In this document: positions 1 through 36,716 of the stretch, piece after piece
Layout: every line of letters begins with the position of its first letter
How positions within the stretch are numbered: the first letter of the stretch is position 1
DNA from: a virus
Virus record (IMG/VR): IMGVR_UViG_3300035070_000750
Location: 1 to 39,092 of that record
Reading direction: 5' to 3' (one strand)
DNA length: 39,092 bases
The notes under the pieces: model-generated
The model's input: the letters and a program-made list of their open reading frames with translations, nothing else
Told to the model about the DNA's origin: nothing
The model's database searches: none
Position numbers and translations under genes: made by a program

Positions 1-513
1 GGAGTTCCTGCTGCGGCCCCGGTTCCCAGCTACCCAGCAGCCCGAACCCGAACAATTGTTCCCAGTAAGTACCCCGGCAGCGCTTTTTACCAGCGATTCA
101 CCCGGTAACACCAGCAGCCCCGGTAACTCCCAGCCTTCACTCGGCCCCGAACCCGAACAATTCATCGGGTTATTACCCAGATTCGCTGCTGGCCCCGGTA
201 GCTGCCGGTCCTGCTGGTATTTTAACCCGAACAATTTATCGGCTTATTCCCCAGATTAGATGCTGGGCCTGAATCTATCTGGGGGGAACATGGACGCCCG
301 AACAATTTATCGGGTTATGTCCCCAGCAAGTTGAATCCCGACCCGATTCCGTGCAAAAATGGTGATAATCCCGTACAGGCGCTGGGAGGGCTACAGGAGA
401 ACCCGAACAAGTTTTCGGCTTCCCGACCCCCCCGATTACTGACACAACCCCACCTGATGGCCCCGATCTGGGGCGCTGCGGCCCCGCCAGCCACCCCGCA
501 CGGTGTTATCCAG
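1..513. repeat. Non-coding palindrome cluster beside terS (possible pac or origin region)
   Basis: No convincing gene lies here. The stretch holds five CCCGAACAA copies (47, 152, 226, 297, 402). Four form inverted repeats: arms 150-156/165-171, 223-230/239-246, 297-301/310-314 and 400-406/415-421, each with an 8-base loop beginning ACAA. The first copy contains a perfect 12-base palindrome GAACAATTGTTC at 50-61. Copies are followed by CCCAG at 61-65, 176-180, 250-254 and 321-325, giving degenerate units of about 115, 74 and 71 bp. Between them are C-rich runs with recurring CCCCGG and GCTGCTGG words. It lies directly downstream of terS on the transcribed strand, where the large terminase subunit would be expected, so a packaging or replication role is possible; that is inference. 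Confidence 0.7.
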
Positions 514-1038
514 CTACTCCGCTGGTTCTTCGCTACAGTCAGTTATAGGAATTTGTTCGGGTTTTACGGGATTTTCTGCTGGAGTTACGTCAATCATGCG
601 ATTTTTAGCACGATCCATGAATTCTTGCAGTTGTTCGACGATCTGCTCTCTGCTGAGATTATCAACGTGTTCATGTGTTACATGGCTACGGGCGACCATA
701 AGCCCCGTTACTTTCAAGCGAAGTTCCTCGGCTTTGATGGCTGCTCCGAAGTTTCCTGCCTGCCAAGCCTCGTCCCGCAGTCGCTGCATATCCCGAACAG
801 ATTTGGTTACGGACACTCCGTATTTGCTTTCGAGTTCTTGCCGCATTTCTTCCATGCGTTCTTTGACTCGTGGATGATTGAGAAGCTGCACTGCTGAAAC
901 GTTCGGGTTTTTATATCCTGCTGCTCGTGCTGCTGCTGTTTGTGTCATGTCTTTGTGGATATAGTTATCCAGAAATTTCTGCTGGGGGGGAGTTAGGCGC
1001 TTTTCCCCTTTGGTTCTTTGTTCCCCGACTTTTGGCAT
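514..1038 (-). CDS. terS: Terminase small subunit
   Basis: Recognises phage DNA and presents it to the large terminase subunit for packaging. The 174-residue product has the small-subunit pattern: an N-terminal LTPPQQKFLDNYI segment, then a helix-turn-helix around residues 30-55 (TQTAAARAAGYKNPNVSA), then VQLLNHPRVKERMEEM and a charged helical region with an acidic tail. This matches the Terminase_2-type family as I know it. I prefer the ATG at 1038 (MPKVGEQ); a TTG at 1050 would add four residues, and neither has a clear Shine-Dalgarno sequence. It is the only minus-strand gene left of the early region and is transcribed toward the left edge, so the missing large subunit probably lies beyond it. 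The 3' end and an internal site carry CCCGAACA motif copies (553-563, 792-799). Confidence 0.8.
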   Translation of the reverse strand: MPKVGEQRTKGEKRLTPPQQKFLDNYIHKDMTQTAAARAAGYKNPNVSAVQLLNHPRVKERMEEMRQELESKYGVSVTKSVRDMQRLRDEAWQAGNFGAAIKAEELRLKVTGLMVARSHVTHEHVDNLSREQIVEQLQEFMDRAKNRMIDVTPAENPVKPEQIPITDCSEEPAE

Positions 1039-1112
1039 CTGCTGGCTCAACCCGAATAATTTATCGTGATGTTAGAATAGCGCGGCTGCTCCTCCGTTGC
1101 AAGTCCAGAGAT

Positions 1113-1127
1113 TCCCAATTTGTCCCA
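1113..1127 (-). promoter_or_regulatory. Paired TGGGA operator-like site upstream of terS
   Basis: On the minus strand two TGGGA boxes occur with starts exactly 10 bp apart (TGGGACAAATTGGGA), about 75 bp upstream of the terS start. A TTGACG -35-like hexamer lies just upstream at 1137-1142, but I cannot find a good -10 at standard spacing. The arrangement is the same as at the promoters at 2176, 3053 and 3187, so it may be an operator for the leftward transcript. Confidence 0.45.
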
Positions 1128-1165
1128 ATACCAAAGCGTCAACGCGGCTTTGACAATAACGACAA

Positions 1166-2175: not shown

Positions 2176-2204
2176 TTGACATCTGGGAAATTATGGGATA
2201 AGTT
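2176..2204 (+). promoter_or_regulatory. Sigma70-like promoter with paired TGGGA boxes
   Basis: TTGACA at 2176-2181, 17-bp spacer, TAAGTT at 2199-2204. TGGGA boxes start at 2184 and 2194, exactly 10 bp apart, filling the spacer and abutting the -10. It lies 3' of a terminator and 27 bp before the 2231 gene. Confidence 0.75.
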
Positions 2205-2230
2205 TATTTATCTAATGAGAAGGAGAAGTT

Positions 2231-2975: not shown

Positions 2976-2988
2976 ATACCCCGTGGAT

Positions 2989-3010
2989 AAGCCGAACAAT
3001 TTGTCGGCTT
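2989..3010. repeat. Complete copy of the dispersed palindrome with changed arms
   Basis: Arms AAGCCGA (2989-2995) and TCGGCTT (3004-3010) are perfectly complementary around the loop ACAATTTG. Compared with the usual AACCCGA/TCGGGTT arms, both sides have changed together, as expected if pairing is conserved. Confidence 0.75.
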
Positions 3011-3052
3011 GTTAAGTTGGCGCGTAACTTTAGTATTTTTTGATTTTTTCTA

Positions 3053-3186: not shown

Positions 3187-3215
3187 TTGACATTGATAAA
3201 AACTTGGGATATTAT
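3187..3215 (+). promoter_or_regulatory. Strong sigma70-like promoter with paired TGGGA boxes
   Basis: TTGACA at 3187-3192, exactly 17 bp, TATTAT at 3210-3215. TGGGA boxes begin at 3205 and 3215, 10 bp apart, bracketing the -10. It drives the long early unit from 3250 to at least 6683. Confidence 0.8.
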
Positions 3216-3249
3216 GGGATATGTCTAGCAAACAGAGGAGATTTTTATC

Positions 3250-3895: not shown

Positions 3896-4043
3896 ATGTC
3901 CCGATTGTGATGGTGAAGGGCAGGTCGAGTATGACTTGCCCCGACCACACGGCTTTGGTCGTGATGTTGGTTACATTGATACAGTGATGGACGACTGTGA
4001 GAATTGTTCGGGTTCTGGTGAAGTGGAGCAGGAGGATGGATAA
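3861..4043 (+). CDS. Small DnaJ-type zinc-finger protein, 60 aa
   Basis: Two CxxCxGxG modules, CPDCDGEG and CENCSGSG, are separated by about 25 residues, the pattern of the DnaJ cysteine-rich domain reduced to one zinc site. No J domain is present. ATG 3861 is chosen because GAGGAGG lies just upstream; an alternative ATG at 3888 lacks such a site. The upstream part overlaps the previous gene and the last codons overlap the XRE gene. It could act as a zinc-bound adaptor for protein or RNA binding. The DNA encoding CSG carries a TTGTTCGGGTT motif copy (4005-4014). Confidence 0.65.
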   Translation: MAVALRLSKMCKCPDCDGEGQVEYDLPRPHGFGRDVGYIDTVMDDCENCSGSGEVEQEDG

Positions 4044-4449
4044 ATTTAACGGAAGAAAATTGCGTTACATTCGTGAACAGCGAGGCGTTAGTCAATTGGA
4101 GTTGTCTAAGGCTTGCGAAGTTCCACAGTCTTTGTTGTCAAAGTATGAAAGGGGGGAGGTCAAAAGCCCCCCTGCAAGTGCGGTTCAGGCTTTTGCGGAT
4201 TACTTTAATGTTGCTTACGGTTATTTTTTTGGTGATGTGAACAGCATTTCTTTAGAGTTAAGTTATCTCGAAATGGGGCTTATTTTGTCTGGTTTAAAGG
4301 CTCTTAAAAAGAAAACCAAAAAAGATTATGACCCGAATTTTGTTCCCGAAGACGGCAGCTTTGATGAGAATCTAAGTAAGTTAATTCGTTGTGACCGTCT
4401 GTTGAATAGTTTGCAGAAAATTTACCGAAAGGGGAGAGAAAATGGTTGA
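4036..4449 (+). CDS. XRE-family transcriptional regulator
   Basis: The N-terminal 62 residues form a Cro/CI-type helix-turn-helix: GRKLRYIREQRGVSQLELS, then KACEVPQSLLSKYERGE. The C-terminal 75 residues are helical and Lys-rich with no peptidase motif, so this is not a LexA/CI self-cleaving repressor. ATG 4036 is preceded by GGAGCAGGAGG; upstream in-frame codons are unlikely. The stop overlaps the next start by eight bases. It is the best candidate in the window for binding the paired TGGGA boxes at nearby promoters, which is inference from position only. Confidence 0.85.
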   Translation: MDKFNGRKLRYIREQRGVSQLELSKACEVPQSLLSKYERGEVKSPPASAVQAFADYFNVAYGYFFGDVNSISLELSYLEMGLILSGLKALKKKTKKDYDPNFVPEDGSFDENLSKLIRCDRLLNSLQKIYRKGRENG

Positions 4450-5160: not shown

Positions 5161-5487
5161 ATGCTTGAACAAGGGAGCGAAGAGAAATTAACGCCATTGG
5201 ATAGATGGAAGGCAATGGCGAAGATTGAGAATGAAAAGATGCTGTCTAATAATGGCAGCAGACATTCTATTGCGGGATTAAAGGGCAGGGATGGTGGCTA
5301 CAGCGGTGGTAGGCCAAGCAAGAGCGTTGATGGTGTTCCCAAGCTGTCTGAGAAGGCTGAGAGGATATTGGTCTGCCTGAAGGAGGGTATGAAGGTCAAA
5401 GCCATTGCGCAAGTTGTTGGCAATTCTCATCAGGCGGTTAGTCAGATTATTGCGCGATATAATTTAAAGGAGTTAGCAGATGAGTAG
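5161..5487 (+). CDS. Helix-turn-helix protein, 108 aa
   Basis: The C-terminal third (residues 67-104) contains a helix-turn-helix: ERILVCLKEGMKVKAIAQVV then GNSHQAVSQIIARYNL, like resolvase/LuxR-type HTH segments. The N-terminal part has a Gly/Ser-rich linker GLKGRDGGYSGGRPSKS. Start at ATG 5161 after GGGAGATAGTG. Its stop overlaps the next gene by eight bases. A phage regulator or a replication-initiation accessory are both possible. Confidence 0.65.
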   Translation: MLEQGSEEKLTPLDRWKAMAKIENEKMLSNNGSRHSIAGLKGRDGGYSGGRPSKSVDGVPKLSEKAERILVCLKEGMKVKAIAQVVGNSHQAVSQIIARYNLKELADE

Positions 5488-5815
5488 CGTTGATGATACA
5501 ATGTGCATGCACTATGTTGTTGATCGTTTGAACGGCATTGTTACTGAGACTGATTTGTTGAGCTTTATTGATGAGGTTCGGCATAACATAGAAGTAAACG
5601 AAGATTGGCGGCGGTCAAATCCGCCATCATTACCCGAACAAGTGTCCGTTAATCCTGAAGACTTTGATGTTTTTACTGCTGTTGATAACATTAAGAGGGA
5701 TTATGTTGAGAGGGCATTATCAAGATCAAAGAACGTAAGCAGTGCTGCAAAGTTGTTAGGCTTGAAAAATTACCAGACTCTGCAAAACTGGATTAATAGA
5801 TTGGAGATTAAGTGA
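5480..5815 (+). CDS. Fis-type helix-turn-helix protein, 111 aa
   Basis: Residues 73-108 match the HTH_8/Fis pattern: DYVERALSRSKNVSSAAKLL then GLKNYQTLQNWINRL, as at the C-terminus of NtrC-type activators, but without an AAA+ domain. The first 70 residues are acidic. AAAGGAG precedes ATG 5480. Coupled by TGATG to the next gene. The Pro-Glu-Gln stretch is encoded by a CCCGAACAA motif copy at 5633-5641. Confidence 0.75.
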   Translation: MSSVDDTMCMHYVVDRLNGIVTETDLLSFIDEVRHNIEVNEDWRRSNPPSLPEQVSVNPEDFDVFTAVDNIKRDYVERALSRSKNVSSAAKLLGLKNYQTLQNWINRLEIK

Positions 5816-6493: not shown

Positions 6494-6683
6494 AAAAGTG
6501 GAGGAGGTCGTTAGTGATCTCCTCCAAAACTTACCCGAACATGTTTCTATTTCTGACATGCGAAATTTGGTTTGCGAACTTTTGTTCGGCTTAGGTTTGC
6601 ACCCAGACGACCTGCCGATTTTTTTGTTGATGGTTGTGGATGCTTATATGGGTGAGCGCAGAGTTGATATGTTACGGGAATAA
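6477..6683 (+). CDS. Small hypothetical protein, 68 aa
   Basis: Helical acidic protein, last member of the 3250-6683 tiling operon. It contains two motif-type words, TTACCCGAACATG (6532-6544) and TTTGTTCGGCTTA (6581-6593), in coding DNA. No family recognised. Confidence 0.55.
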   Translation: MSLSSEKVEEVVSDLLQNLPEHVSISDMRNLVCELLFGLGLHPDDLPIFLLMVVDAYMGERRVDMLRE

Positions 6684-6718: not shown

Positions 6719-7537
6719 ATGTCAACGTTAAGTCCTTTTGCAAATTCGATTCGTCAGCAACCCATGTTGTCCCATGTTCAGCCATTTGATAAATCTCAGT
6801 TTGGTATAGGTGCGTTGTTTAAAAGACTAGCAGCATCGCAGCCAACCAACAATGCTCCATTACGACAGCTTGGTGTAGCGCAGCGCAACGATGAGCCTGA
6901 TGAAGACTACAATGTGCGTAGTGGATTAACTAGAGCGCCACAACAGCCTGCTCAACCCACAAATCCTTTTGAGGGCAACGAGCAGTATCAGGCGTTGATG
7001 GAATATCAGCAGAGCCTAGCACCAAACCAAGAGCAGCAAGCGCGTTTGCAAGAGTTACGTTCGGCTTTTGAGGGTACGGGTGGATATAAGGATTACCGTA
7101 TTAATCAGTTGCAGAACCAGTTTCAGCAGCGACAGCGCAATCCGATGATGGGTATGGGATTGGGTGGTATGCGTCCGATGGGTATGCAGCCTTATCAAAA
7201 CTTTGGGCGACCCCCGATGCAGCAGCGTCCGATGCAGAATCCGATGCCAGTTCCGCGTGGTGGTTATTTGGGATATAATCAGATGATGAACCCACAGCGT
7301 CAGTTCGGCGCGATGGGATATAATCAGCCGCAGCCCTATCAGCAGCAATCTGGCATAATGGGTGGTTATGGAATGAGTCCATATCAGCAGATGCGTCCAC
7401 AGCCACAGCAGTTTGGTGGTTATGGAATGGGACAAAGCATGGGTGGATATGGCGGTTACGGCGGTATGTCGAATCCTTACCAGCCCCAGCAGATGGGTTC
7501 ATACAACCCGAACAATTTTATGGGCTATCTTCAATAA
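6719..7537 (+). CDS. Low-complexity Q/G/M/P/Y-rich protein, 272 aa
   Basis: The first 60 residues look foldable; from about residue 75 the sequence is dominated by Gln, Gly, Met, Pro, Asn and Tyr in short imperfect repeats such as GYNQMMNPQRQFGAMGYNQ and GGYGMSPYQQMRPQPQQFGG. No domain is recognised. Composition resembles intrinsically disordered, prion-like or condensate-forming proteins, and also some virion glue proteins. It lies last in the rightward direction, after a motif copy, and its 3' end overlaps the convergent 7518 gene by 20 bases. A CCCGAACAA copy encodes the NPNN near its end (7504-7515). The sequence CCCATGTTGTCCCATG at 6761-6776 near its start repeats the promoter spacer at 3059. 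Confidence 0.65.
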   Translation: MSTLSPFANSIRQQPMLSHVQPFDKSQFGIGALFKRLAASQPTNNAPLRQLGVAQRNDEPDEDYNVRSGLTRAPQQPAQPTNPFEGNEQYQALMEYQQSLAPNQEQQARLQELRSAFEGTGGYKDYRINQLQNQFQQRQRNPMMGMGLGGMRPMGMQPYQNFGRPPMQQRPMQNPMPVPRGGYLGYNQMMNPQRQFGAMGYNQPQPYQQQSGIMGGYGMSPYQQMRPQPQQFGGYGMGQSMGGYGGYGGMSNPYQPQQMGSYNPNNFMGYLQ

Positions 7538-8247: not shown

Positions 8248-8250
8248 TTA

Positions 8251-8274
8251 TAACCCGAACAAATTATCGGCTTA
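8251..8274. repeat. Dispersed palindrome copy at the primase-helicase stop
   Basis: Arms TAACCCGA (8251-8258) and TCGGCTTA (8267-8274), one mismatch, loop ACAAATTA. The right arm contains the stop codon of the primase-helicase gene. Confidence 0.75.
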
Positions 8275-10497
8275 CATGCTATCGCGCCCGGTAACAGGTT
8301 CATATGTCCCGTTGGATAGCGGCCCATTTGGAACTCCGAGGTATTTAAGCGGTCCGCTGGGGGTCAATCTGTACTTATTAACCAGACCTTGCTGCATGGC
8401 TTTGGTCACTGTGTTTTTAACTGTTGTTGGTTTGACTTGTTGAATTGCTATGATGCAAGGCTCGTTTGGCTCTAATCCGTTGGCTGTATTCCAAACGCCA
8501 TCATGCACACCTTCTATTGTGACTGCTAATCCTTGCGCTTCACGCATACGGATATAATCAACAACGTGCGCCAAGCGCTCTCTGACGGTAGAAGACATTG
8601 CAATAGCTTGAATATCTACGCTTCGATCTTCAAGTAGACCAGTGTTTGGGTTACGAATGAAATGTCTGATTTCACGATTGGCAGGTCCATTTGATTTCAC
8701 AACAGCGCCATCGAACGCGGTATTTCGTGCGTATGGTATGTTTAAATCCTTACACCTTTGCCTACCTGTGCTTTCATCTATTTGCCACACTGAGAAGGCA
8801 GAGCGAACGCCGTCAACGATAGCGGATGTGCCTCTGATTTTATTACGAGCCTCCTCTGGTGTGGAGATTGGCTCTTTGGCATCCACTTTTGACATGTGGT
8901 GGTTAACCATAACAGTTGCACCTGTTTCGGTTGCCATCTGCGCGAGAAGCCCCATGAATGCAGCACCTGCCGCTGGATCAGCGTTTACATCAGCGTGAAC
9001 AAACGATGCCATTGGGTCTATCACCACTAGCCGTAAGTTATCTAATTCAAGCATTTGATCATATATACGAGAGAACTCATCGCCCATGACATATGAATTG
9101 TCGAACTTTTGCATGATTGGGAACACGCCGCCCAAGTTAGGCAATGGTAAAATCCGCAGTTTGTGATCATAGTGTTCACGATAATTCAGGGGATCAAGTC
9201 GAGCGATCCTGCGGTGCATTTCATCTTTATCATCTTCCGCAGTCAGAATAATTGCATCCCCATGCTCTGCCACAAGACCACCAAAAGCGTTTTGCATAGA
9301 TGCTCCAGACGCTACTTTCATGGCAAGGTCGAGTGTCATCATGCCTTTGCCGCTATCCCCTGCCGCTGCAAATACAACTGGGACACCTAGCGGCATTGTA
9401 TCTCCAATGAGAAACTTTTGCTCTGGTGCGCTACCGACAAAATATTTGTCGATAAGCAGACTATCATCTAAAAGAGATATTGGTTTTTTTACTTTGTTTT
9501 CATGGCCTTTGATGAACTTCTTTATGTTGAATTCTTCTTCTACAGCATCTGCTGCGTCCCACTTTTCAGGCTTTGTTGATGGGATTTGAAGCATGAGCGT
9601 TGACTTTGCACCCACGGCTTTTGCTTGCGCCTCAACAATCCTTGCAAGTTTTTTACCTGCATCATCGTGATCAGGCCATAAGATTACTTCTTTGTTGCGC
9701 AGAGGTGTGAAGTCGAACTTTGATGCTGTATTTTCTGACAACATTCCTGCGCCACCAATTGTGCATGTTGCAGCGTATCCTAGCTGATTAAGAGCATCTG
9801 CGCATTTTTCACCTTCAACCCAAATAACCTTGTCTGATCCAAGTATATTGGGTATGTTATAGAGGGGTCTGGGTTCGGGTAAACCTTGGCTTCCATTCAT
9901 AAACTGGCGGAACTGTTTTTTTGGTTTTCCTGTTCCATCCCGAACAATTTCGCCAGTTGCATCTCTTTCAAAGTATTTTCTAACAGTAACGAGAACTTGA
10001 CCGTCCTCATCTGTATAGTCGTACTCTTCTTCAAACGGAGTGCTTGGCCCAATGTTTGCCTTCACAGGCTTTTGTTCGGGTTTGATAAAGCCATTTGTAG
10101 CGGTTGTGTTTGTGACCTTAAAGTTTTCTGGCTTATTTAGCTTGACGATGTTCTCTGGTTGCGGCGCTAGATTTTTGGGCAGGTATTCAGAGAAGTATTC
10201 TGCTGTTTCTGCGAGTGTCCAACCACGGCCCTCTTTCATGATCTTACTAATGCCACCTACGCCATCACCTGACTCAAAGTCTTTGCCGCTTAGAAACCAA
10301 GGGCTATTGATGTCAATGTTTATGCGAAGCGACTGACCTTTTTCCCCACGCAATGAACCTAACATGAAATCATTGCCGCGCCGAATCCCATTCGGGAAGG
10401 TTTCTAGTAGAGCGCGTAGCTGAACTTCTCTTGGAACTTCGCTTGAAATTCTCTCAGCTACCTCTCTTGATGTCTTGCCAAAATGTAAAATATTCAT
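8272..10497 (-). CDS. Primase-helicase (TOPRIM plus RepA/DnaB-like ATPase), 741 aa
   Basis: Replication protein expected to prime and unwind at the fork. A TOPRIM domain is marked by VIWVEGEK (Glu near residue 228) and WPDHDDAGK (acidic cluster near 276-279). A RecA-fold ATPase follows: Walker A AAAGDSGKG near 380-385 (Gly where Ser/Thr is usual, as in RepA/AAA_25 relatives), Walker B LVVIDP near 491-495, and a VNHHMSK motif after that. The C-terminal 100 residues resemble a winged-helix region. No cysteine zinc-binding domain is seen at the N-terminus. ATG 10497 is preceded by AAGGA; a TTG at 10515 is less likely. Two CCCGAACA copies lie within coding DNA (9939, 10074). Confidence 0.85.
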   Translation of the reverse strand: MNILHFGKTSREVAERISSEVPREVQLRALLETFPNGIRRGNDFMLGSLRGEKGQSLRINIDINSPWFLSGKDFESGDGVGGISKIMKEGRGWTLAETAEYFSEYLPKNLAPQPENIVKLNKPENFKVTNTTATNGFIKPEQKPVKANIGPSTPFEEEYDYTDEDGQVLVTVRKYFERDATGEIVRDGTGKPKKQFRQFMNGSQGLPEPRPLYNIPNILGSDKVIWVEGEKCADALNQLGYAATCTIGGAGMLSENTASKFDFTPLRNKEVILWPDHDDAGKKLARIVEAQAKAVGAKSTLMLQIPSTKPEKWDAADAVEEEFNIKKFIKGHENKVKKPISLLDDSLLIDKYFVGSAPEQKFLIGDTMPLGVPVVFAAAGDSGKGMMTLDLAMKVASGASMQNAFGGLVAEHGDAIILTAEDDKDEMHRRIARLDPLNYREHYDHKLRILPLPNLGGVFPIMQKFDNSYVMGDEFSRIYDQMLELDNLRLVVIDPMASFVHADVNADPAAGAAFMGLLAQMATETGATVMVNHHMSKVDAKEPISTPEEARNKIRGTSAIVDGVRSAFSVWQIDESTGRQRCKDLNIPYARNTAFDGAVVKSNGPANREIRHFIRNPNTGLLEDRSVDIQAIAMSSTVRERLAHVVDYIRMREAQGLAVTIEGVHDGVWNTANGLEPNEPCIIAIQQVKPTTVKNTVTKAMQQGLVNKYRLTPSGPLKYLGVPNGPLSNGTYEPVTGRDSM

Positions 10498-11287: not shown

Positions 11288-12067
11288 TTATAAACCTCTT
11301 ATTAGTTGTGGAGCATCAAAAATCATTTCTAACTGTGGGTGATTTAATTCTTCAAACTCTATGTCACAAAAGTTTCCACAATCAGGCATAATTATCTTTT
11401 GCTTATGCCCCTTTTTAGGGTCTAGTTCGTCCAGAAAATCGCCACGAATACATGAGTTGCCCACCTCACGCTCTAGTTCAGCCATTTGCTTAAAGTGATC
11501 TGGAAAATCTATTCTGATTTTGTTCCAATAGCCTGCACCACCCTTTACGCAACCAATGCAATTATTGTTTTTATATCCAAGCCCATACATAGCTGGACTT
11601 TCTATGTTGGCTTTTTGCAGGAAGTGCAGACACTCAGGCTTGGTCATGCGCTTTTCGATCAAAGGAAATATAGGCTTAGATACAGGATATTGTTCCTTAA
11701 ATCTTATCGCTCTGTTTATTTCCTTTTTGCTAAACTCAAATCCAAACACCTGACCATCATAGGCGAGTTCCTTCTCTACTCTTTGCCTAACGCTTTTCTT
11801 GAGTTCAGAGGTGCATCTCGCTCCTGCTGGACCGTTCACATATCTAGTCTTTTTAATAACATCAAATTGGTCTTTGTACTTTTCAGACCGCCAAACTTCT
11901 ATTTCACAGCCATACCAATCTTCACACTCTTTTTTAAATCTAGCGTTGTCATCATGCGCAGAGTCTATAGCAAAGTATATGGGCTTTATCGAACTCCCAA
12001 ATTCTTCAATAGCTATCTTAGTTGCAACGGCGCTAGTAACCCCTGCACTCCACCATGATATAATCAT
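11288..12067 (-). CDS. PP-loop ATPase, PAPS-reductase-like
   Basis: The N-terminal SWWSAGVTSAVATKIA (residues 4-19) is a PP-loop in the adenine-nucleotide alpha-hydrolase fold, as in PAPS reductases and related thiolation enzymes. Cys85 (GARCTSELKK) and the pair C170/C173 (NNNCIGC) could bind metal or carry sulfur. In phages this family is usually labelled PAPS reductase, yet sulfate assimilation is unlikely here; nucleic-acid or nucleotide modification is a more attractive role (inference). 259 residues, ATG start, ends three bases before the nuclease gene. Confidence 0.75.
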   Translation of the reverse strand: MIISWWSAGVTSAVATKIAIEEFGSSIKPIYFAIDSAHDDNARFKKECEDWYGCEIEVWRSEKYKDQFDVIKKTRYVNGPAGARCTSELKKSVRQRVEKELAYDGQVFGFEFSKKEINRAIRFKEQYPVSKPIFPLIEKRMTKPECLHFLQKANIESPAMYGLGYKNNNCIGCVKGGAGYWNKIRIDFPDHFKQMAELEREVGNSCIRGDFLDELDPKKGHKQKIIMPDCGNFCDIEFEELNHPQLEMIFDAPQLIRGL

Positions 12068-12313: not shown

Positions 12314-12615
12314 TGTATTGTCTCCTTTCTTGACCCGAACAATTCTACGACTTCATTTATTTCTTCTGGGTCCACATCTTTGTTTCTAAATCCAATGTTC
12401 AAAACCTCATGCCCTTTGATTAAGATAGTTGCTGTTCCAAACAAAATCTCTTTTTCTGCTTCTTCAAGATGGTCATGAATGACCTCGTTTGCTCTATCCT
12501 GAACTTCAGCAAGGTTTGTTGAATCATTGACCCAACACACCATTTCTATTTCAGATGTTTCTACCGAATCATCATCTCTTTCTGTAAACATTAGGTGCAT
12601 TTCAAATCTAGGCAT
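12310..12615 (-). CDS. Hypothetical protein, 101 aa
   Basis: ATG 12615 preceded by GGAGAAG. Acidic mixed alpha/beta product (MPRFEMHLMFTERDDDSVE at the start, TATILIKGHEVLNIGF in the middle). Its last codons contain a CCCGAACAA motif copy (12333-12341) encoding the ELFGS end. Unrecognised. Confidence 0.6.
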   Translation of the reverse strand: MPRFEMHLMFTERDDDSVETSEIEMVCWVNDSTNLAEVQDRANEVIHDHLEEAEKEILFGTATILIKGHEVLNIGFRNKDVDPEEINEVVELFGSRKETIH

Positions 12616-17369: not shown

Positions 17370-17579
17370 ATGCCAAATCCAGTAAAGTACAAATCAGTAA
17401 GCGTTTCAATAGCAGCTTACGATAAATTAGTAAAAATAGCGGATCATGAAGACCGTGCTATAGGTCGCCAGTTATCTCGCATGATTGATGAGTCTTATGA
17501 CGATGTGCAATCGAAGGTGGCATCTCGCTATGAAAGACGTAACAGCGTTGGCGGCATTGCTTCAGTTCTAGAAGACTAA
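17370..17579 (+). CDS. Ribbon-helix-helix-type small regulator, 69 aa
   Basis: The layout KYKSVSVSIAAYDKLVKIAD (beta strand and first helix), then EDRAIGRQLSRMIDESY (second helix), fits a ribbon-helix-helix fold as in Arc/MetJ/CopG-type proteins. Translation starts at ATG 17370 with only a weak upstream GGGA. Its promoter carries two TGGGA boxes, so it may regulate itself. Its stop overlaps the end of the convergent 1021-residue virion gene by four bases. A DNA-binding role is inferred from fold only. Confidence 0.65.
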   Translation: MPNPVKYKSVSVSIAAYDKLVKIADHEDRAIGRQLSRMIDESYDDVQSKVASRYERRNSVGGIASVLED

Positions 17580-20500
17580 AGCAGTCCTGCGTTTCCAAGA
17601 CCGCCCAGTAGTGTTGCTGCCACTGCTGGGTTTTTTCGTGCGCGATCTCTAAGTTCTTTATTAACATTAGAGCGAAGAATATCAATTACACCAACAGGAG
17701 CAGCAGGACCTCCTTTTGAGATAGTTTTAGGTATTGATATTTGAGGCATTTCAGGTTGTTGAACATTTGGAACACTTGTTCGGTTTCCTTGTTCCTGTCT
17801 AAACATAGCACGAGGAAGTACGTTTTTTGCTACACGACTACTTTGCCCATAGGTAGAACCTATTCCACGAGCAATTCCACCAGCCCTACCAGCCATCTGT
17901 CCTACGTTTATACCTTCTTCCATTGCAGCTTGGTTCATTATATCCATTACGCCTTGAGCGCGACCTTCTGGGTTATTTATAGTAGCTCGCCTCATTGCTA
18001 TATAAGCCTTTACAGATTCTGGCTTGTTAAAAATACTTACGATTGCTCTAAATTTAGCTAGTCTTCCTAGCACATTAAGCGGATGTGAAAATATTCGAGA
18101 AAACAATCCTGAAGCAGCAATAGAACCTTCTTTAGCTGCATCTCCACCAATAACAGCTAAATCGTCTGCAAAATCTTTTAATGCTTTAAAAGTTTGTTGA
18201 CCTTCTTCGTCTAAAATTTGTTTTAAAGAACCCGGTTTATATTTGCTCAAGGTTTCTTGTAAAGACCTTGCTTTTGCAGCAGATGTAAATACATCTTCGT
18301 CAACTACACTTAGCATGTCTTGAAGAACAACATTCTTCATGTTTTGTTTCATTTGAGGGTTGTAGTCAAAAAACTTCATAATTTGACGCGTTTCGCTTTC
18401 AGTCAAATTAGGGTTTGTTAAAGCCTTAACAACGTCATCATAACTCGAAGATTTGTTCGGATTGTTTAAGTCTTTAATAACACTTGTTTTGAGAGCCTCT
18501 GTTTGCTCTTTGTTTGCTTTAACAACATTTTTTAAAGAAATTATAAGATTGGAAGAACCTCCTGCATCAAAAACTCTTTGCACATCGTTTGCATTTAAAG
18601 TATTTTTTATACTTGTTTGTTCCATAACCTTTGCAAGTTTTTTAACTTCGCCCCACTCTTTGCCAAATAATTTAGGTCCAGTAGTTCCAAGTTTCATAAT
18701 ACTTTTTGCAAATGCTTTACCGTTAAACGCTTCAGGATTTATTGGATCAAGTTTAGATTCTTTTATAGCCATACTAAAGAAACGGCCTCCAAGTTCGTCC
18801 AATAATTCGTTTGGGTTATCAACTGCACTTATTACAGCCTGAAGGCGTTCAGGAGAATCTGGTTTAATAACTTTAGAAAAAAAGCCATCTGATATTGCTC
18901 GTGGACCTGCATCACCAAAGGCTTTTAAGTCTTGTATAGACCGTATAACACCAATGTTTGATAAATCTTCAAACCTACTAATGCCTTTTCTGTAATTATC
19001 ATTAGCAGTTTTGCGCAACTTTGCTGCCGCAGCTAATATTTCTCTTGTGTCTTTAGGAAGTTCTAATCCTGTAGGAAGAACTAAGCGATTAATAATATCA
19101 TCGCTGTCTAACATATTATCAAGCAAACCTTTAAGACTATTTAGTTGTTTTGTTCCTTGAGTTCCAGCACCGAACATTAAACTGTCATTAACGTGCTTTC
19201 TAAGAGAAACAAGGTTTCTAAAACTAGCTCTTCCACCCGCATCTGTTAGTTCTTTTAACGAGTTATATGCAAGACCAACGGAACCTTCTAAGAGAGATGT
19301 CCCATGATCTTCAATCATGTCATCAAATTTACTCATAAGACCACTAGTGTTAAATAATTTTAACTTACCGCCTTCTTTGAGAACCTGAACACCGTCTATA
19401 GTTACTGGAACTTGTATTTGCGCCAAAGCATCGTCTATAGCACCATAAGCACTCCGCGATACGTCATCAAAAGCATTAAATGCTTGAACTATACTGCCAA
19501 GAGTTTTTGCGTTTAAATCTAAATTCTCATCTACAGAAGCATATAGCATTTTCATGCCAGTATCTATGGCGTCAAAAGTTTCCGAGTGAGATTTTTTTAT
19601 GTTTGAATTTAATTTTGAAAATTTAGAAGGAGCGTACCACATTACGTCTTTAGCTAAACCCTCTACAGGATCACCTTTTATAGCATTAGTAAAGGTTTTC
19701 TTTTCTTCCAAAGCTACTGCTAGGTTGTTGTCCATTCTTGTTGTATTTTTTGTAGCATTTTCTCCAAAAAGTTGAGTGTAAGCTAAAGGTTCTGGAGCAC
19801 CAAGAGAACGTAAAGATTGAATATAACCTTTACTAAGTAATCTTTCGCCTTGGTCTAATTGTTTTAAAGTCACTTCATCCATTGCGCTAAGAGAGCCGCC
19901 TGCACGACCAGCAAGTGATTTGCCAGCGCGTCCTAATCCACGCACCCCTGATGCTACTATAGCGCCAGCAACTTCACCACCAGCACCAATAACAGCTTCT
20001 ATAGCTACATCTTTAGTCACATCACCAAGACTTTGAGTTTGTACTCCAAGCAATGTCTCAATGGCCTCCTCTAGTGCTTGACCACCAGCCGCACCAGCGG
20101 CTGCGCCACCAATCGAACCAATTCCAAAAGTTAAACCACCACCAAGAATAGCCCCACCAATAGAACCTATGGTTTCAGGTAAGATACCAGCGAAGTCAGA
20201 AAAATCACGCATACTAAAACCTTCATCTTCGATAATGAGGTTTTTTCCAATTGGCTCCATGCCACGGGCTTTTTGTCCTGCTTCAGTTAAGGCAAGTCGT
20301 CCAGATGGATCACGCACATAGCCATCTTCTCCAACAGTCTTTTTTAAGATTGCTTCACGATCACCTTCAGTTTCACCAAAGGACATTAAAGCGCGAAGTT
20401 TACCGTCTGCACCTGATTCATAGTCAAACATATCACGGTCTTTGTTAGTTCTTTTATCAGCAACTTGTGTTAAACTTTCACCTGAATTTAAACCAGAAAA

Positions 20501-20641: not shown

Positions 20642-22431
20642 TATTTAACGACTCCAAGTGTTTTTAAGTCAGCGTTCATAGACTTTCTTTCAGCTTCTGT
20701 AAGCTCACCATCTCCAAAATAACTAGAAATTTTTTCTCCTGAAACTTGATCAAGATTTGTTAATCCTTCAAGGATTTTATTTTCTTCTCCCGTAACAACA
20801 TCATTGTATAGTTTTGCAAGTTTGAATTCTAGTAAATCTGGATTTGAAAATAATGTTTTATCCCCAACAATTGATTTTACAAGTGAACGTTCAAAGTCAG
20901 ATGTATTTTTGCCGCCTTCACCTAATATATTATTTGCTTGTTTTGCTTGTAATTCTGTCAAAATAGCTTTCATTTTTTCGTTTGGATTAGCACCTTCTGA
21001 AACATTAACTCCAAATGCACTTGCCGCACTGTCTACAGTGTCTAGTAAGGTGCTAAATACATTTACAGCACCCTCATCTGACATTGTTTGAAGGTTTATA
21101 AATTTTTCTTTATTTGTTTGATTTGATTTAAATCTTTTTTGAAGCGCCCTGTACGCAGCATCAACTTTCGCATCACTAGCCGAAACAACTTGGCCTCTTT
21201 TAGCTTGATTTGGGAGGCCGTAAAAAACGTCAATCATGTACATAGGGTCATCATCCCCAGTTATGAGAGACATTTTTCTTGGGGTTGTGTCAAAATATTC
21301 TTTAGCCTCTGGTGTTTTCATAGCCTCTGATACAACAGAACTCCAAACTGATCCGGGCAGTACCTCAAACTGAGAAGCAAATTCAGGATTCTTAATAAGT
21401 TTGTCTAACTCATATTTACTCAATGATTTACGCTTACCTTCTCCCTGCGCTAAACTAGCCAACAAACCTTTTACATTTTCAAATTTTGGAACAACAAAGT
21501 AATCGGTACGTTCCATTGCCTTTTCTCTAGCTGCAAGAGCTTTAGCTTCATCAGCAGACCTCATCTCTAAGGCAAACTTGCCAGCCGCTATACCATCTTG
21601 ACGCGATCTTTCTCTAGCTTTTTCTAAGGCAGGCAACGCCGCTTGACCAGCCTCACCGACTGCGCCTAGCATTTTCCCTATGTTAAAACCTTTACCCGCT
21701 TTGTTTTGCATTAGCGCAAGACCAAAAGACATAAGAGCATGACTCTTATCCACCTTGCCGCTAATGTCTATGCCAGTGGCTTCAGCAAACTTTTTCTTGT
21801 ATTCATCTAAATCTTTAACTTTTGTGTCTGGGCCTGCGCCACGCACAGCCTCCAAATAGTCATTTAAACCAGCCATAGCCGCTTGTTCAATTTCATCTTG
21901 TGAAACAGTCGGGTCAAGGTCAGCTTCTTTGCGCCGCAATGTTTCCTCTATTGAAGACTTGACCTCCTTTTTCGGCTGTAATTGCGCTAATGTTTCATCA
22001 ATGTCCGTTGCAAGTTGATCTAATGGAGATTCTGCAAAAATAGGATCATTTTCTGGCAAACTTTCAAGACGCTTTGCGACATCCGCTACAAATTTACGAT
22101 CTTCTAATTGGATAACAGGAGGCATTCCCTGAAGGATGTTATATTCACTCAACAACTCTTCTTCATTAAATTCTGTGGGCAATCCAAATTGGACAACTCG
22201 ACCATCTTCTGGACGCTGATAAGCACCGAACACTTGTTCGGGTTGTGCAAAAAGCTCAGATATTCTCTCACCCAAGTTGTCTTCTTCTTGAAAATAATCT
22301 AAAAATGAGCGTTGATCATCAATTTTTCGGATAAGTGAGTTGTCTATTTGTGGCAAAACTCTGGGCGCACTTGTACGCCCCGGACCTTCTTCTTGAAACA
22401 AAGAACCCAAACCAAAATTAGTATCAGCCAT
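20641..22431 (-). CDS. Ejection/internal virion-type protein, 596 aa
   Basis: Soluble, helical, highly charged, with a middle Ala/Lys-rich segment (MLGAVGEAGQAALPALEKAR, then ERSRQDGIAAGKFALEMRS). I recognise no catalytic domain. Its place between two other ejection-type genes suggests a pilot or ejection role. It contains a CTTGTTCGGGTTG motif copy in codons near the N-terminus (22230-22242). Nine bases separate it from the upstream gene. Confidence 0.55.
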   Translation of the reverse strand: MADTNFGLGSLFQEEGPGRTSAPRVLPQIDNSLIRKIDDQRSFLDYFQEEDNLGERISELFAQPEQVFGAYQRPEDGRVVQFGLPTEFNEEELLSEYNILQGMPPVIQLEDRKFVADVAKRLESLPENDPIFAESPLDQLATDIDETLAQLQPKKEVKSSIEETLRRKEADLDPTVSQDEIEQAAMAGLNDYLEAVRGAGPDTKVKDLDEYKKKFAEATGIDISGKVDKSHALMSFGLALMQNKAGKGFNIGKMLGAVGEAGQAALPALEKARERSRQDGIAAGKFALEMRSADEAKALAAREKAMERTDYFVVPKFENVKGLLASLAQGEGKRKSLSKYELDKLIKNPEFASQFEVLPGSVWSSVVSEAMKTPEAKEYFDTTPRKMSLITGDDDPMYMIDVFYGLPNQAKRGQVVSASDAKVDAAYRALQKRFKSNQTNKEKFINLQTMSDEGAVNVFSTLLDTVDSAASAFGVNVSEGANPNEKMKAILTELQAKQANNILGEGGKNTSDFERSLVKSIVGDKTLFSNPDLLEFKLAKLYNDVVTGEENKILEGLTNLDQVSGEKISSYFGDGELTEAERKSMNADLKTLGVVK

Positions 22432-24979: not shown

Positions 24980-25210
24980 CTAGAGTGTACTGCCAGAAAT
25001 AGCTTCTGGGGCTGTAACCCGAATATTTGTACTTCTTTTTTCTGATCCTGTCCAACTTTCTCCACAGTCAGGACAGTTCCCATCAGGGTAAGACGCGATT
25101 TCTTCAGGGGTATCCACAGCGTTTGTGCAATTTGCGCAATGCACCATATCAGTGCTTGTGGAAGGCTTCCATTTAGAGCCATCTGGCATCGTAATAATTG
25201 TGTCACTCAT
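24980..25210 (-). CDS. Small zinc-ribbon protein in the virion operon, 75 aa
   Basis: Two CxxC pairs, CANC and CPDC, about 20 residues apart (VHCANCTNAVDTPEEIASYP, then DGNCPDCGESWTG) indicate a zinc ribbon. ATG 25210 overlaps the preceding stop (ATGA). A longer frame on the same strand in another phase lacks these motifs. The end carries a partial CCCGAATA motif (25017-25026). Confidence 0.6.
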   Translation of the reverse strand: MSDTIITMPDGSKWKPSTSTDMVHCANCTNAVDTPEEIASYPDGNCPDCGESWTGSEKRSTNIRVTAPEAISGSTL

Positions 25211-25503
25211 GATATTGTCACCGTTACTGCACCCACGCCACAAGTCCCTTCAGACCCACGAACATGTGGTGTGTTGATTTCTGATACTTTTAAATAGCCA
25301 CCATGATTAAACACAGCGCCGACTTCTAGACCACTATCATCTGTTTGTAACGCCGTAAAAACAGTGAACGTGTTACGCCCTTCACTGGGGTTTTGCATGT
25401 TTTGAAGATATGTTGAGTAAGACCTCAAAACTTCTTCAAAATATTGATTGCTATACTCCTGCGGGGGTATTGGGAAAAATGGAAGGTTTAAGTTTCTAGA
25501 CAT
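25207..25503 (-). CDS. Conserved marine-phage small protein, 98 aa
   Basis: A TAATG overlap couples it to the gp10-like gene. Starts with a Pro-rich stretch (NLPFFPIPPQEYSNQYFEEV) and ends GTCGVGAVTVTIS, a C-terminal tail similar to that of the 36713 gene and to the 22-residue repeats of the 33305 gene. Probably a virion component. Confidence 0.6.
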   Translation of the reverse strand: MSRNLNLPFFPIPPQEYSNQYFEEVLRSYSTYLQNMQNPSEGRNTFTVFTALQTDDSGLEVGAVFNHGGYLKVSEINTPHVRGSEGTCGVGAVTVTIS

Positions 25504-27617
25504 TAACGCCTCCCATCAGGTCGAACATCTACCCGTGGTGAACCTAAACGCCACCCCGTTCCAATGTCATCGCTTTCAATTCTAAACGCGAATGACCTTC
25601 CTCTAAGCCGAACAAATACTTGATCTGTAAACTGCTCAATGGGAACAGATGCGGTTTTAGATACTGTGCTGGCATCAGATGATAAGTAGTTTCCGCCCGG
25701 AAAATTTCTTACCTTCAGTGTCATAGTAGCACTAGGCTCTGGATTAGTAGAGTTTCTAAAGGTCATGTCTGGTATCATTCGTCGCATAAATACAAACTGC
25801 TCACCTTCTCCAAGGTCCATTTGGCTTGATTCAATATAAGCGCTGATTCCACTTGCAGGACTTGTACTACCATCGTCAAAGCCAACTTCATGAAAGTACA
25901 AGTAATGATCTGTTGCTGCTGCAATTGGATCACTATTTACGCCACGATCAAGCCAGCATGTACGAGACAAGTTGCCATAATACCATATTTTTTGATCATA
26001 ATTATATGTTACATAGCGATCATTTTCGTTACTTGATGAGGAAGGATAAAACCAAGTCACTTCAGAAAACGCAGTGTTTGTTGCAGCAGTTACTTTTTCT
26101 AATTGATCAACATTTATGTCCGTAAAGACGTAATCTCTTACGGAGCATGGCAAGCGCTGCACAGCACCACCATAAACATAAAACTCTTCCGCACCCATCC
26201 AGAACACATTATCTTCCACAGCGATTGCAGATAAAGGTCCAGCGATTGTAATGTTTGTAGATATTTCGTTTATACCGAATGTAAAAGGAGGCCCTAAAAA
26301 TTGCATGGCGTGTAGTGAAACATCAGTAAAAACAAGAACTTGTTGCCTTGTTTCTATAGCCGTAACAATCTTTGAACCAGCGCCAATCCGTAAGTCTCCT
26401 GCTGTATTTGTCACAAGAGACTGCCATTCAGTTATATTCTCTTGATCAGAAAATCTTATAAGCAATGGGTCTTGAACTCCGGGTACTAGCTCTGAATCAC
26501 ATGCGAAAGCGATAACATGACGGTCACGATCAGAAACAAGAACTTGCTTTGCTATTGTAGGAACTTTGTTAGCACCCGCTACATCAGACAACTCAACGGC
26601 TCTAGTAGCTAATCCATTTGTGTTGTCCCAATAATATATACCGCCATCACGCACGTTAATTAACAGGTCTTCACCAAAATTATCGTGCGACCATATACGA
26701 AGCGTTTGACCAGCAACAGACAAAGATGTCGAGCTTCCCCATGTTCCCCGACCCCATGTTCCTGCACCCCAACCATTTCCAATAATAGTAGTATCTAAGC
26801 CTGTGGTAATCTGATAACTGCCAACAACGCTAGAACCACCATTTCCACTATCTGATGTTGTTGCAAAAACATAAGTCTCATTGAGGCCAGAGGTTGTTGT
26901 TATGCTGCCTATTGTAGAAACAGTACGAGCCTCTACCTGATAACTATTAGCGTTAATAATAGATGTAATTTGATATTCTTGATTAAGAATATTTGCAGCT
27001 ATTACATCTCCTAATGATGCCGCTCCAGAAAATGTTACAAAATCATTTTCTAAAGCACCATGACTTGTATCTGAAACAATTAATGTTGCACATGTTACAG
27101 CCGCGCTAGAAGAATGAGATGCAGCAACTGTACCATTAAGACCACGGATACATCCCTGTAAAGTATTGCTAGAAACATTAGCATAGGTAAGGATTTCACT
27201 ACCTATTTTTACACGACCAGAATTGGGGAACCCTGAAGCACTTGTAAGTGATATGCTTACATCACTTGCAGTTATATTCGCAGACAAAGTATTAGCGCTT
27301 GCGGAAAAAGTTACATCTCCTGCTGATGTCGTTGCGCGAATTGGTGTGATGTCGTCATACCCGCCACCTTGACTGATGTAATACTTTAAGTTTGTTCCAA
27401 CACCTAAATAATTAGACCCATCTAGTGCAACCCAAGGGTGCAATGCGCGGCAAGTTCCTAAAAAAGAACTCACTGAATTCTTTACCCATCCTCCAATTTT
27501 CTCAGGAAAGCCAAAACGAAATCTGACTTTATCCATGTCAAACCAACCGCCCTCATTTGAATATGACGTAGTTTCGCGGTTAACGCCGGGGCGAAATTGA
27601 AGTTTGGTAAATGGCAT
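25503..27617 (-). CDS. P22 gp10-like tail accessory (packaged DNA stabilisation) protein
   Basis: The N-terminus KLQFRPGVNRETTSYSNEGG leads into WFDMDKVRFRFGFPEKIGGW, the hallmark of the gp10-like tail accessory family, which sits between the portal-adaptor complex and the tail needle. The 704-residue chain is almost entirely beta-rich with Thr/Ser/Asn. ATG 27617 is chosen because AGGAGG lies six bases upstream. WGAGTWGRGTWG appears in the middle, echoing the WGRGTWSTGTWG start of the 33305 repeat protein. It supports a podovirus-type tail. Confidence 0.75.
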   Translation of the reverse strand: MPFTKLQFRPGVNRETTSYSNEGGWFDMDKVRFRFGFPEKIGGWVKNSVSSFLGTCRALHPWVALDGSNYLGVGTNLKYYISQGGGYDDITPIRATTSAGDVTFSASANTLSANITASDVSISLTSASGFPNSGRVKIGSEILTYANVSSNTLQGCIRGLNGTVAASHSSSAAVTCATLIVSDTSHGALENDFVTFSGAASLGDVIAANILNQEYQITSIINANSYQVEARTVSTIGSITTTSGLNETYVFATTSDSGNGGSSVVGSYQITTGLDTTIIGNGWGAGTWGRGTWGSSTSLSVAGQTLRIWSHDNFGEDLLINVRDGGIYYWDNTNGLATRAVELSDVAGANKVPTIAKQVLVSDRDRHVIAFACDSELVPGVQDPLLIRFSDQENITEWQSLVTNTAGDLRIGAGSKIVTAIETRQQVLVFTDVSLHAMQFLGPPFTFGINEISTNITIAGPLSAIAVEDNVFWMGAEEFYVYGGAVQRLPCSVRDYVFTDINVDQLEKVTAATNTAFSEVTWFYPSSSSNENDRYVTYNYDQKIWYYGNLSRTCWLDRGVNSDPIAAATDHYLYFHEVGFDDGSTSPASGISAYIESSQMDLGEGEQFVFMRRMIPDMTFRNSTNPEPSATMTLKVRNFPGGNYLSSDASTVSKTASVPIEQFTDQVFVRLRGRSFAFRIESDDIGTGWRLGSPRVDVRPDGRR

Positions 27618-27638
27618 CAGCAACCTCCTACTAAGGCA

Positions 27639-27707
27639 ATTATACACAATTCGAACAATTGTACGAGTTATTCTTTTTTAAAAAATAACCCGAACAATTT
27701 AATCTAT
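27639..27707 (-). promoter_or_regulatory. Long hairpin made of two facing motif copies, with a -10-like box
   Basis: Between the endolysin stop and the gp10-like start. Two CGAACAATT-type motif copies point at each other and, as minus-strand RNA, form a stem of about 20 bp (27680-27699 with 27657-27676) with one mismatch and two G-U pairs. It has no T-run, so is not a classic terminator. A TATAAT box lies downstream on the minus strand (27639-27644) without a good -35. Confidence 0.6.
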
Positions 27708-28172
27708 AAGCTCAAAATGCGGCCCATCTATAAACGGACGGCGATCTTGTTTTCTGCGCAAGTCGATATAAGCATTCATGGCTTCTTCCATAGTGCCGTC
27801 CCACTTGCGAATGTCCATAGGATACGGCATTTCAGGTGTTCCCCAAGCAGCCCCCCAACAGATAGGAACACCCACGACAATAGCAGCTTCCTTGATTGCA
27901 TCAGCTAAATCATCGTACAGATTTAGTTCCCAAGATGCTCTCCCATTTATATAGGCCATAATGTCAAAAGCCTTTCCCTCAAGGTGCTTGGACTTCATCG
28001 TCTGGGAAGCTCCCTTGGCTACCAACTCTTTCTGTTGCTCAAGAGTTCTCATGCCTTGCACAACACCGAAATCAGTTTTCGTAAGTGTTATGGCGTGTTT
28101 AACAACAGCTTGTAGCCGCTCATCAATCCCTTCCAGCTTATCAAGGCTGCGTCTGCTTAGTTTGAATCCCAT
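27699..28172 (-). CDS. Endolysin, M15-type (L-Ala-D-Glu / D-Ala-D-Ala) peptidase
   Basis: Cuts peptidoglycan peptides to lyse the host. The Peptidase_M15 zinc ligands are in order: SKHLEGKAFD (H63, D70) and DGPHFEL (H152). The preceding GVVQGMRTLEQQKELVAKGA segment is also typical. At 157 residues it is a single-domain lysin without a signal peptide, so it needs the holin. It sits after the 28260 holin and a 39-residue membrane peptide. Confidence 0.85.
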   Translation of the reverse strand: MGFKLSRRSLDKLEGIDERLQAVVKHAITLTKTDFGVVQGMRTLEQQKELVAKGASQTMKSKHLEGKAFDIMAYINGRASWELNLYDDLADAIKEAAIVVGVPICWGAAWGTPEMPYPMDIRKWDGTMEEAMNAYIDLRRKQDRRPFIDGPHFELID

Positions 28173-36072: not shown

Positions 36073-36716
36073 GTTTTCTCCCTAATAATAAGACCTGTTC
36101 GGTAAGCATCCGTAACTTCTTGTGATTCACCAAAGTTTTTGACGCGAGAAAGGGCTTCTGTAAATCTTTGTGTATAATTCTGCACAAGATCACCTTCACC
36201 CTTCATAAAAGTGTACGCCTCTATTAAACTACCATATAGCATAGAAACTGAAGCATTCGTGCTTAACCATGTTGTCCCACTTCCAGAACCAGCAGTCAAA
36301 GAAGCTGGTCTGTAGAAGTAATGAAGCTCAACATTGTAATTTGAATCTGGAGTTGGTCCTAGAATAAAGTTATCAACATCAAACTGCGCATAATACCGAG
36401 GAGCACCAGTCGTAGAATTGTTCGGGTTAAAAGACTGAACAAAGTTTACGTCTTTAAATAGCACAAACTCTTTGTTGCTGCCGTTTGTAAAAGACAGACT
36501 AAATGGAGCCAAATAATCATCAGGTAAAGCAAGATATTGATTGCTTGCAGTAAGATTTCCTGTTTGATTTTTTCGGAAAACCTCAAGTTGCGCTATTTTT
36601 AAGATGCGCTCTTCAGCGTTTTTAATAAATATATCCAGACTATTCACAAAGGTTGTCTCTGTGTTTTCAGTGTAATCCTGAATAGCCGTTTTCAATTCTG
36701 CGTATGTAAAGCTCAT
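36069..36716 (-). CDS. Head-tail adaptor-type protein, 215 aa
   Basis: Recognisable family: AELKTAIQDYTENTETTFVN at the start, AEERILKIAQLEVFRKN, DFILGPTPDSNY-like FILGPTPDSNYNVELHYFYR, and SLIEAYTFMKGEGDL. Related to the SU10-type adaptor family linking portal to tail. A TTGTTCGGGTTA motif copy lies within coding DNA (36419-36430). Confidence 0.7.
   Translation of the reverse strand: MSFTYAELKTAIQDYTENTETTFVNSLDIFIKNAEERILKIAQLEVFRKNQTGNLTASNQYLALPDDYLAPFSLSFTNGSNKEFVLFKDVNFVQSFNPNNSTTGAPRYYAQFDVDNFILGPTPDSNYNVELHYFYRPASLTAGSGSGTTWLSTNASVSMLYGSLIEAYTFMKGEGDLVQNYTQRFTEALSRVKNFGESQEVTDAYRTGLIIREKT

Follow-up and report, generated by a model that had tools for sequence, protein, structure and literature searches.

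The question raised by this locus is what a cluster of short repeats lying next to terS, the gene for the terminase small subunit, does for a phage. The original prediction, made for the stretch of DNA analysed here (the window, a 39,092-base virus record classed as linear), was that the cluster is a candidate for a packaging site or an origin. The contig behind the window is incomplete: at base 1 it breaks off within the array. We find that the sites are densest beside terS, with the set spread over the whole genome; this looks like a control network and not a lone packaging signal.

The five motif copies reported within 420 bp are present as exact copies of CCCGAACAA at 47, 152, 226, 297 and 402, and the perfect palindrome GAACAATTGTTC does start at 50. 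The CCCAG units described with them were only partly reproduced: the ends at 65, 180 and 254 and the spacings of 115 and 74 stand, but the fourth end lies at 326 and not 325, the third spacing is 72 and not 71, and one of the five copies has no CCCAG after it. CCCAG was dropped as a motif, and a 26-bp dyad, with start-to-start spacings of 105, 74, 71 and 105 bp, accounts for all five copies (Table 1). In the window the motif is a 24–26 bp pseudo-palindrome, aTAACCCGAACAA/TTGTTCGGGTTAt, also written TAACCCGAACAA/TTGTTCGGGTTA, and a matrix iterated over eight related records converged on the symmetric 26-bp site ATAACCCGAACAATTGTTCGGGTTAT, in which an inner AATT and an outer TAA are conserved. 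The cluster lies, as had been stated, 3' of terS, which is on the minus strand. It was further said to lie away from any gene, and no gene with relatives was found there (small ORFs were partly searched); it is not, however, away from regulation, since promoter-like sequences stand beside the array and the terS start.

Table 1. Sites and associated features in the window; scores are those of the symmetric 26-bp matrix.
Feature	Position	Strand	Score or remark
GC-rich non-coding stretch with site array	1..513		cut by contig end at 1
Array site, inner palindrome GAACAATTGTTC perfect, one outer arm broken	43..68	+	21.7
Array site	148..173	+	29.3
Array site	222..247	+	28.8
Array site, holds 18-mer present in 56 viral contig stretches	293..318	+	21.9
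Array site, dyad ~106 bp past terS stop; near +100 in relatives	398..423	+	26.7
terS, terminase small subunit; likely ATG start 1038	514..1050	-	PHROG 51, Pfam Terminase_2
Site directly 5' of terS start; about -543 in 7/8 genomes	1047..1072	+	20.5
terS promoter-like TTGACG...TTGGGACAAATTGGGA, upstream of 1047 site	1095..1142	-	pattern match only
Intergenic site between terminator-like hairpin and early promoter-like sequence	2987..3012	+	27.1
Weak site at start of XRE-type HTH gene	3991..4016	-	15.9
Weak coding site	6569..6594	-	16.6
Site at 3' end of ORF 6719-7537	7503..7528	+	23.8
Site between primase-helicase 3' end and next gene	8250..8275	+	27.3
Coding site in primase-helicase	9935..9960	+	17.7
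Coding site	12330..12355	+	21.2
Coding site	17763..17788	-	19.3
Coding site	18440..18465	-	27.5
Coding site	22221..22246	-	22.6
Site	25014..25039	+	17.2
Intergenic near-symmetric site, ORFs 25503-27647 / 27699-28172; half-site at 27685	27646..27671	-	27.4
Coding site	36405..36430	-	22.9

The sites are far too numerous to be accidental. The window holds 15–20 of them where about 0.1 would be expected, and eight related phage genomes hold 12–23 each, at a score above 12 with the 26-bp symmetric matrix, against 0–1.4 in the Markov sequence from which the chance level was taken. CCCGAACAA is the most over-represented 9-mer family of the window (16 exact copies against 0.23 in the Markov model), 11 of the copies lying outside the cluster and one of these within terS; an 18-mer allowed up to three mismatches matched eight times, against 0.00 in shuffles. 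About half of the sites in the window are within genes, and their density per 10 kb, by rough ORF calls, is 7.6 in intergenic and 2.5 in coding DNA. Coding sites exceeded a within-gene shuffle of synonymous codons in all eight genomes (in the window, nine against a shuffle mean of 1.7 and maximum of 4), and this excess indicates that the coding copies are selected too. The shuffle, Markov and synonymous-codon comparisons together rule out chance or codon usage as the source of the motif.

What is selected appears to be a double-stranded protein site and not a hairpin, because the two halves do not co-vary: they deviate independently, with only 68 of 455 deviating pairs still able to pair, and the hairpins of the actual sites are weaker than those with re-paired halves. 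A hairpin, terminator or structured RNA was accordingly rejected: compensatory changes are lacking, and nothing in Rfam matches the window. The double-perfect site is avoided. It is represented by none of 175 thinned sites, against 12.6 expected from random pairing of halves, a figure that is inflated if the score cut misses weak-weak sites; the double-perfect CCCGAACAATTGTTCGGG occurs in one viral contig, against 56 stretches for a variant with one half broken. This avoidance is a clean constraint on any model of how the sites act.

In viral contigs, CCCGAACAATTTATCGGG was found in 56 stretches, every one with several copies of the core, nearly all with a match to terS and often with matches to other genes of the window. 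The motif is common to phages of about 33–48% GC, among them a low-GC group whose terS is 58% identical (L029, with 11 sites in 13.6 kb). The relatives are metagenomic contigs thinned by sequence similarity only, with simple ORFs as gene calls. The original prediction had named the presence of the same cluster beside terS in relatives as a test, and it is found at 38 of 39 terS loci, each followed by 400 bp or more of sequence and made non-redundant by shared 12-mers. Relative to the terS stop, the first array copies typically fall near +100 and +205. The single exception, L101, has a terS 91% identical and no array half-sites in the 600 bp after it. The array 3' of terS is the most conserved part of the site set. 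In some groups the motif changes: in the L268 group the outer half-site is shifted (tGAcTcCGAACAA), and L286, L287 and L289 have no site scoring above 15 in 17–21 kb. L287 keeps its array: five copies of CGAACAA, each oriented as usual, lie within about 200 bp on the 3' side of terS. De novo motif finding in the L286 group settled on a coding pattern, and its result was left out. Six contigs of this kind (L285, L286, L287, L289, L293 and L294) have the primase-helicase and no sites above the cut-off, and several have terS and RHH-like matches.

The four cultured relatives are HTVC023P-type pelagiphages (HTVC023P, HTVC027P and 023Pt_psg01) and DSL-LC04; their large terminase subunits (TerL) are 56–62% identical and their structural genes are related. 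Their small subunits (TerS) are only 26–28% identical, and the dispersed motif is essentially missing: no motif sites were found in the first three, and DSL-LC04 has one or two by score. A primase-helicase of this type was not detected in the four. Repeats adjacent to terS do exist in them, but with different sequences and locally only. The cultured phage collection that was searched held no close relative of the motif-bearing family, which many viral contigs carry. The family is apparently marine; three of the four cultured relatives come from seawater, and otherwise the label is one that we presume from records we recognised. A TerS search for the host in a bacterial and archaeal genome collection returned nothing.

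How far the cluster could be a packaging site can be considered from the genome ends. Annotation of most of the window's large ORFs gave neither a large terminase gene nor one for a portal or major capsid protein; with TerL about 8 kb downstream of terS in the relative L053, these genes are assumed to be past the ends of the contig. A fixed genome end at the array, whether cos or another fixed terminus, is disfavoured since most contigs read through it: of the 69 contigs with terS, 60 extend beyond it by more than 600 bp and nine end within 0–600 bp, with no clear excess of ends at the array. Nor is there a common end in the tail-fibre region, since near-complete contigs end at different, rearranged places (G001, G003, G012 and G014 break within that region; G013 breaks near terS). 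A permuted genome packaged by a headful mechanism would be compatible with the lack of a common terminus. The array would then be the pac region, with TerS binding the oriented repeats, TerL cutting nearby and the dispersed copies serving as secondary or pseudo-pac sites. The model for this is SPP1, in which TerS-bound pacL and pacR surround the cut at pacC (PMC6316719); the pac regions of SPP1 and SF6 are repeats at terS that overlap its promoter and gene start (PMC6316719, PMC4737164), and the DNA-binding domain of the window's TerS is similar by a low-confidence model. The conservation of the array beside terS agrees with this, as does its retention in L287, where a 21-kb locus yields no dispersed site over the cut-off. 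The window and the 99.97% identical L037 also share their end base within the array (window base 1, L037 position 5946), although this shared end could be either a cut or a repeat-induced assembly break. Against it, the SPP1 pac is one locus in the 5' part of terS, whereas here the array is 3' and its sites recur genome-wide; the array is the main concentration of sites and yet not a unique one. DNA binding by the SF6 TerS domain depends little on sequence (PMC4737164), in contrast to the tight 24-bp motif found here. A simple pac site is also insufficient to account for the 12–23 copies per genome, some of them selected inside coding sequence. The packaging half of the original prediction keeps the conservation beside terS in its favour and leaves the dispersed copies without an account; we regard it as the main rival to our preferred reading, possible but somewhat unlikely as an explanation of the array.

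The orientation of the sites gives a different kind of information. In the 0–300 bp directly past terS the strong half-site points back over terS, opposing its transcription, by 87 to 9; the orientation flips some 250–350 bp past terS, and between +250 and +3000 in the six largest genomes it is opposite, by 16 to 1. From -3000 to -600, half-sites lie in the early-gene direction by 48 to 9. Near the array the polarity thus matches the transcription of both arms, but in distant coding regions it does not match transcription and over most of the left arm it is weak, so that the strict polarity that the motif at first seemed to show across the genome did not hold; strong polarity is confined to the surroundings of the array. 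A flip of this kind, followed in several genomes by an AT-rich stretch after the array, could suggest an origin with iteron-like sites and two arms, read by the primase-helicase or another replication protein. Of relevance is that the primase-helicase is common to the motif-bearing groups and went undetected in the four cultured relatives, and that the SPP1 origins oriL and oriR are likewise repeats beside an AT-rich stretch; those, however, are two loci of direct repeats with an origin protein, for which genome-wide copies are not described (PMC6316719). Many of the present sites are far from the array and within genes, the left-arm polarity is weak, and the L286 group keeps the primase-helicase but not the dispersed motif. 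We consider an origin quite improbable.

Promoter-like sequences are found at terS and beyond the array. In seven of eight genomes a site lies immediately ahead of the terS start codon, and in the window and G011 it falls between the promoter-like sequence of terS and the start codon. Beyond the array, a strong promoter-like sequence is present in four of eight genomes (G003, G011, G013 and G014), where TTGACA...TGGGATAATGTGGGAT, also given as TGGGATAATGTGGGATTGTCTAG, stands 52–90 bp past the last array site. Of 13 promoter-like matches, four have a site 20–130 bp upstream (0.56 expected), all four linked to the array; most sites are away from any recognisable promoter. A second repeated element, TGGGA-N5/6-TGGGA, was noticed around the -10 of the phage promoter-like TTGACA...TGGGATAATGTGGGATTGTCTAG (window 2176-2223 and 3187-3230; G003 30809, G011 1395, G013 2156, G014 30172), and may be a further operator or a mark of the phage's promoters.

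The explanation that we prefer, at a probability of roughly 0.45, is a dispersed operator or roadblock system with its hub in the stretch from terS to the next promoter. Double-stranded sites across the genome would be bound by a symmetric protein, a dimer or oligomer, probably tightly on the full half-site and weakly on the broken one. The site between the terS promoter and the start codon could act as a roadblock or an autoregulator; the array between terS and the next promoter, with several sites occupied, would govern transcription of both departing arms; and the single sites elsewhere would damp transcription as stoperators do. The reader is most likely encoded by the phage.

The leading candidate is TerS: of the proteins checked in the neighbourhood of the array, it is the DNA-binding protein that every motif-bearing group has. 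Its structural model is of low confidence (mean pLDDT 61), the best match in the PDB being the DNA-binding domain of SF6 TerS at an E value of 0.18. The region of the recognition helix is conserved where the motif is conserved: the helix reads GYSNPSVDAVRLL in L268 and GYANPGVDAVRLL in L286 and L287, against GYKN..V.AV.LL in the others, and the L268 and L286 groups, in which the outer half-site is altered, have S or A for K43 and D for S48. This correlation may represent one evolutionary event, and other proteins diverge too. If TerS were the reader, the array could also load it for packaging. The full form of this idea, in which TerS doubles as a genome-wide regulator that binds some 15–20 imperfect dyads, represses its own gene, organises the array between early and late arms and starts packaging there, is in our view unlikely. 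The primase-helicase and a small RHH-like ORF are further possible readers. The latter (17371-17577, +), without a Pfam match, lies on the strand opposite to its neighbours and is kept in the larger relatives; it was set aside as less likely, since its first strand varies where the motif is constant and since it persists in the motif-poor L286 group. The XRE repressor (3997-4449, +) was rejected because, among the first 56 loci, tblastn matched it only in L037, and the Fis-like protein (5480-5815) because it had no match in the motif-bearing G002 or in L029. Searches for HTH_3 and for tyrosine integrases gave no repressor or integrase shared by the whole family: apart from the XRE gene of the window itself, HTH_3 was detected among seven relatives only in G011, and there was no tyrosine integrase. 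The phages may therefore be strictly lytic, which would make stoperator-like silencing less sensible.

The reader might instead belong to the host, as a regulator or nucleoid protein that the phage uses or titrates. In form the core, GAAC-N4-GTTC, resembles certain bacterial operators, although the conserved inner AATT and outer TAA are unlike the LexA box. That phages of about 33–48% GC share the motif would suit a host protein, whereas the densest sites go with terS. For the common variant, a 22-mer had no match in 84,980 bacterial and archaeal species genomes, a result for one variant in a set from which the host may be absent. Control of phage genes by host factors through sites in the phage genome is known, CtrA being an example (PMC9437464). 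We hold a host reader to be very unlikely.

A narrow search of the literature found no description of such a motif. Dispersed phage operators are already known, and what sets the present ones apart is the length and symmetry of the site, its location in coding sequence, the hub at terS and the lack of a recognisable family-wide repressor. The stoperators of the cluster A mycobacteriophages L5 and Bxb1 are 13-bp asymmetric sites for a monomeric immunity repressor; like the present sites they are short, numerous (more than 20 in those phages) and dispersed, with a preferred orientation, which here is seen near the array, and some are at promoters and most are not (PMC9283540, PMC6550527). The differences are that our site is a 24–26 bp pseudo-palindrome, albeit with one strong half, that about half of the copies are in genes, and that the densest group is 3' of terS with no family-wide repressor found. 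SPBRE of the Bacillus phage SPbeta, a 15-bp motif bound by MrpR in about ten promoter regions, was also a repeated element first found by sequence alone and occurs in many regulatory regions of phages (PMC10516654); the present sites are longer, more numerous and extend into coding sequence. With a sharply defined 24–26 bp site, the control circuitry of these phages can be tested in the absence of the host. Were TerS the reader, packaging and the control of transcription would be joined in one protein; were it not, a new regulator would remain to be found.

Three other features of the window are of interest in their own right. A phosphoadenosine phosphosulfate reductase gene, an auxiliary metabolic gene, is present at 11288-12067 (-). 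At 33305-35323 (-), beside an S74 tail protein, there is a 672-aa protein built of a repeat like VTGLSATGSVGSV, with no PHROG or Pfam match. Finally, a cluster of short repeats, TTACGTCAA and TTGACGTAA, lies at 1200-1380 between terS and the early operon, and TTACGTCAA has seven copies in the window.
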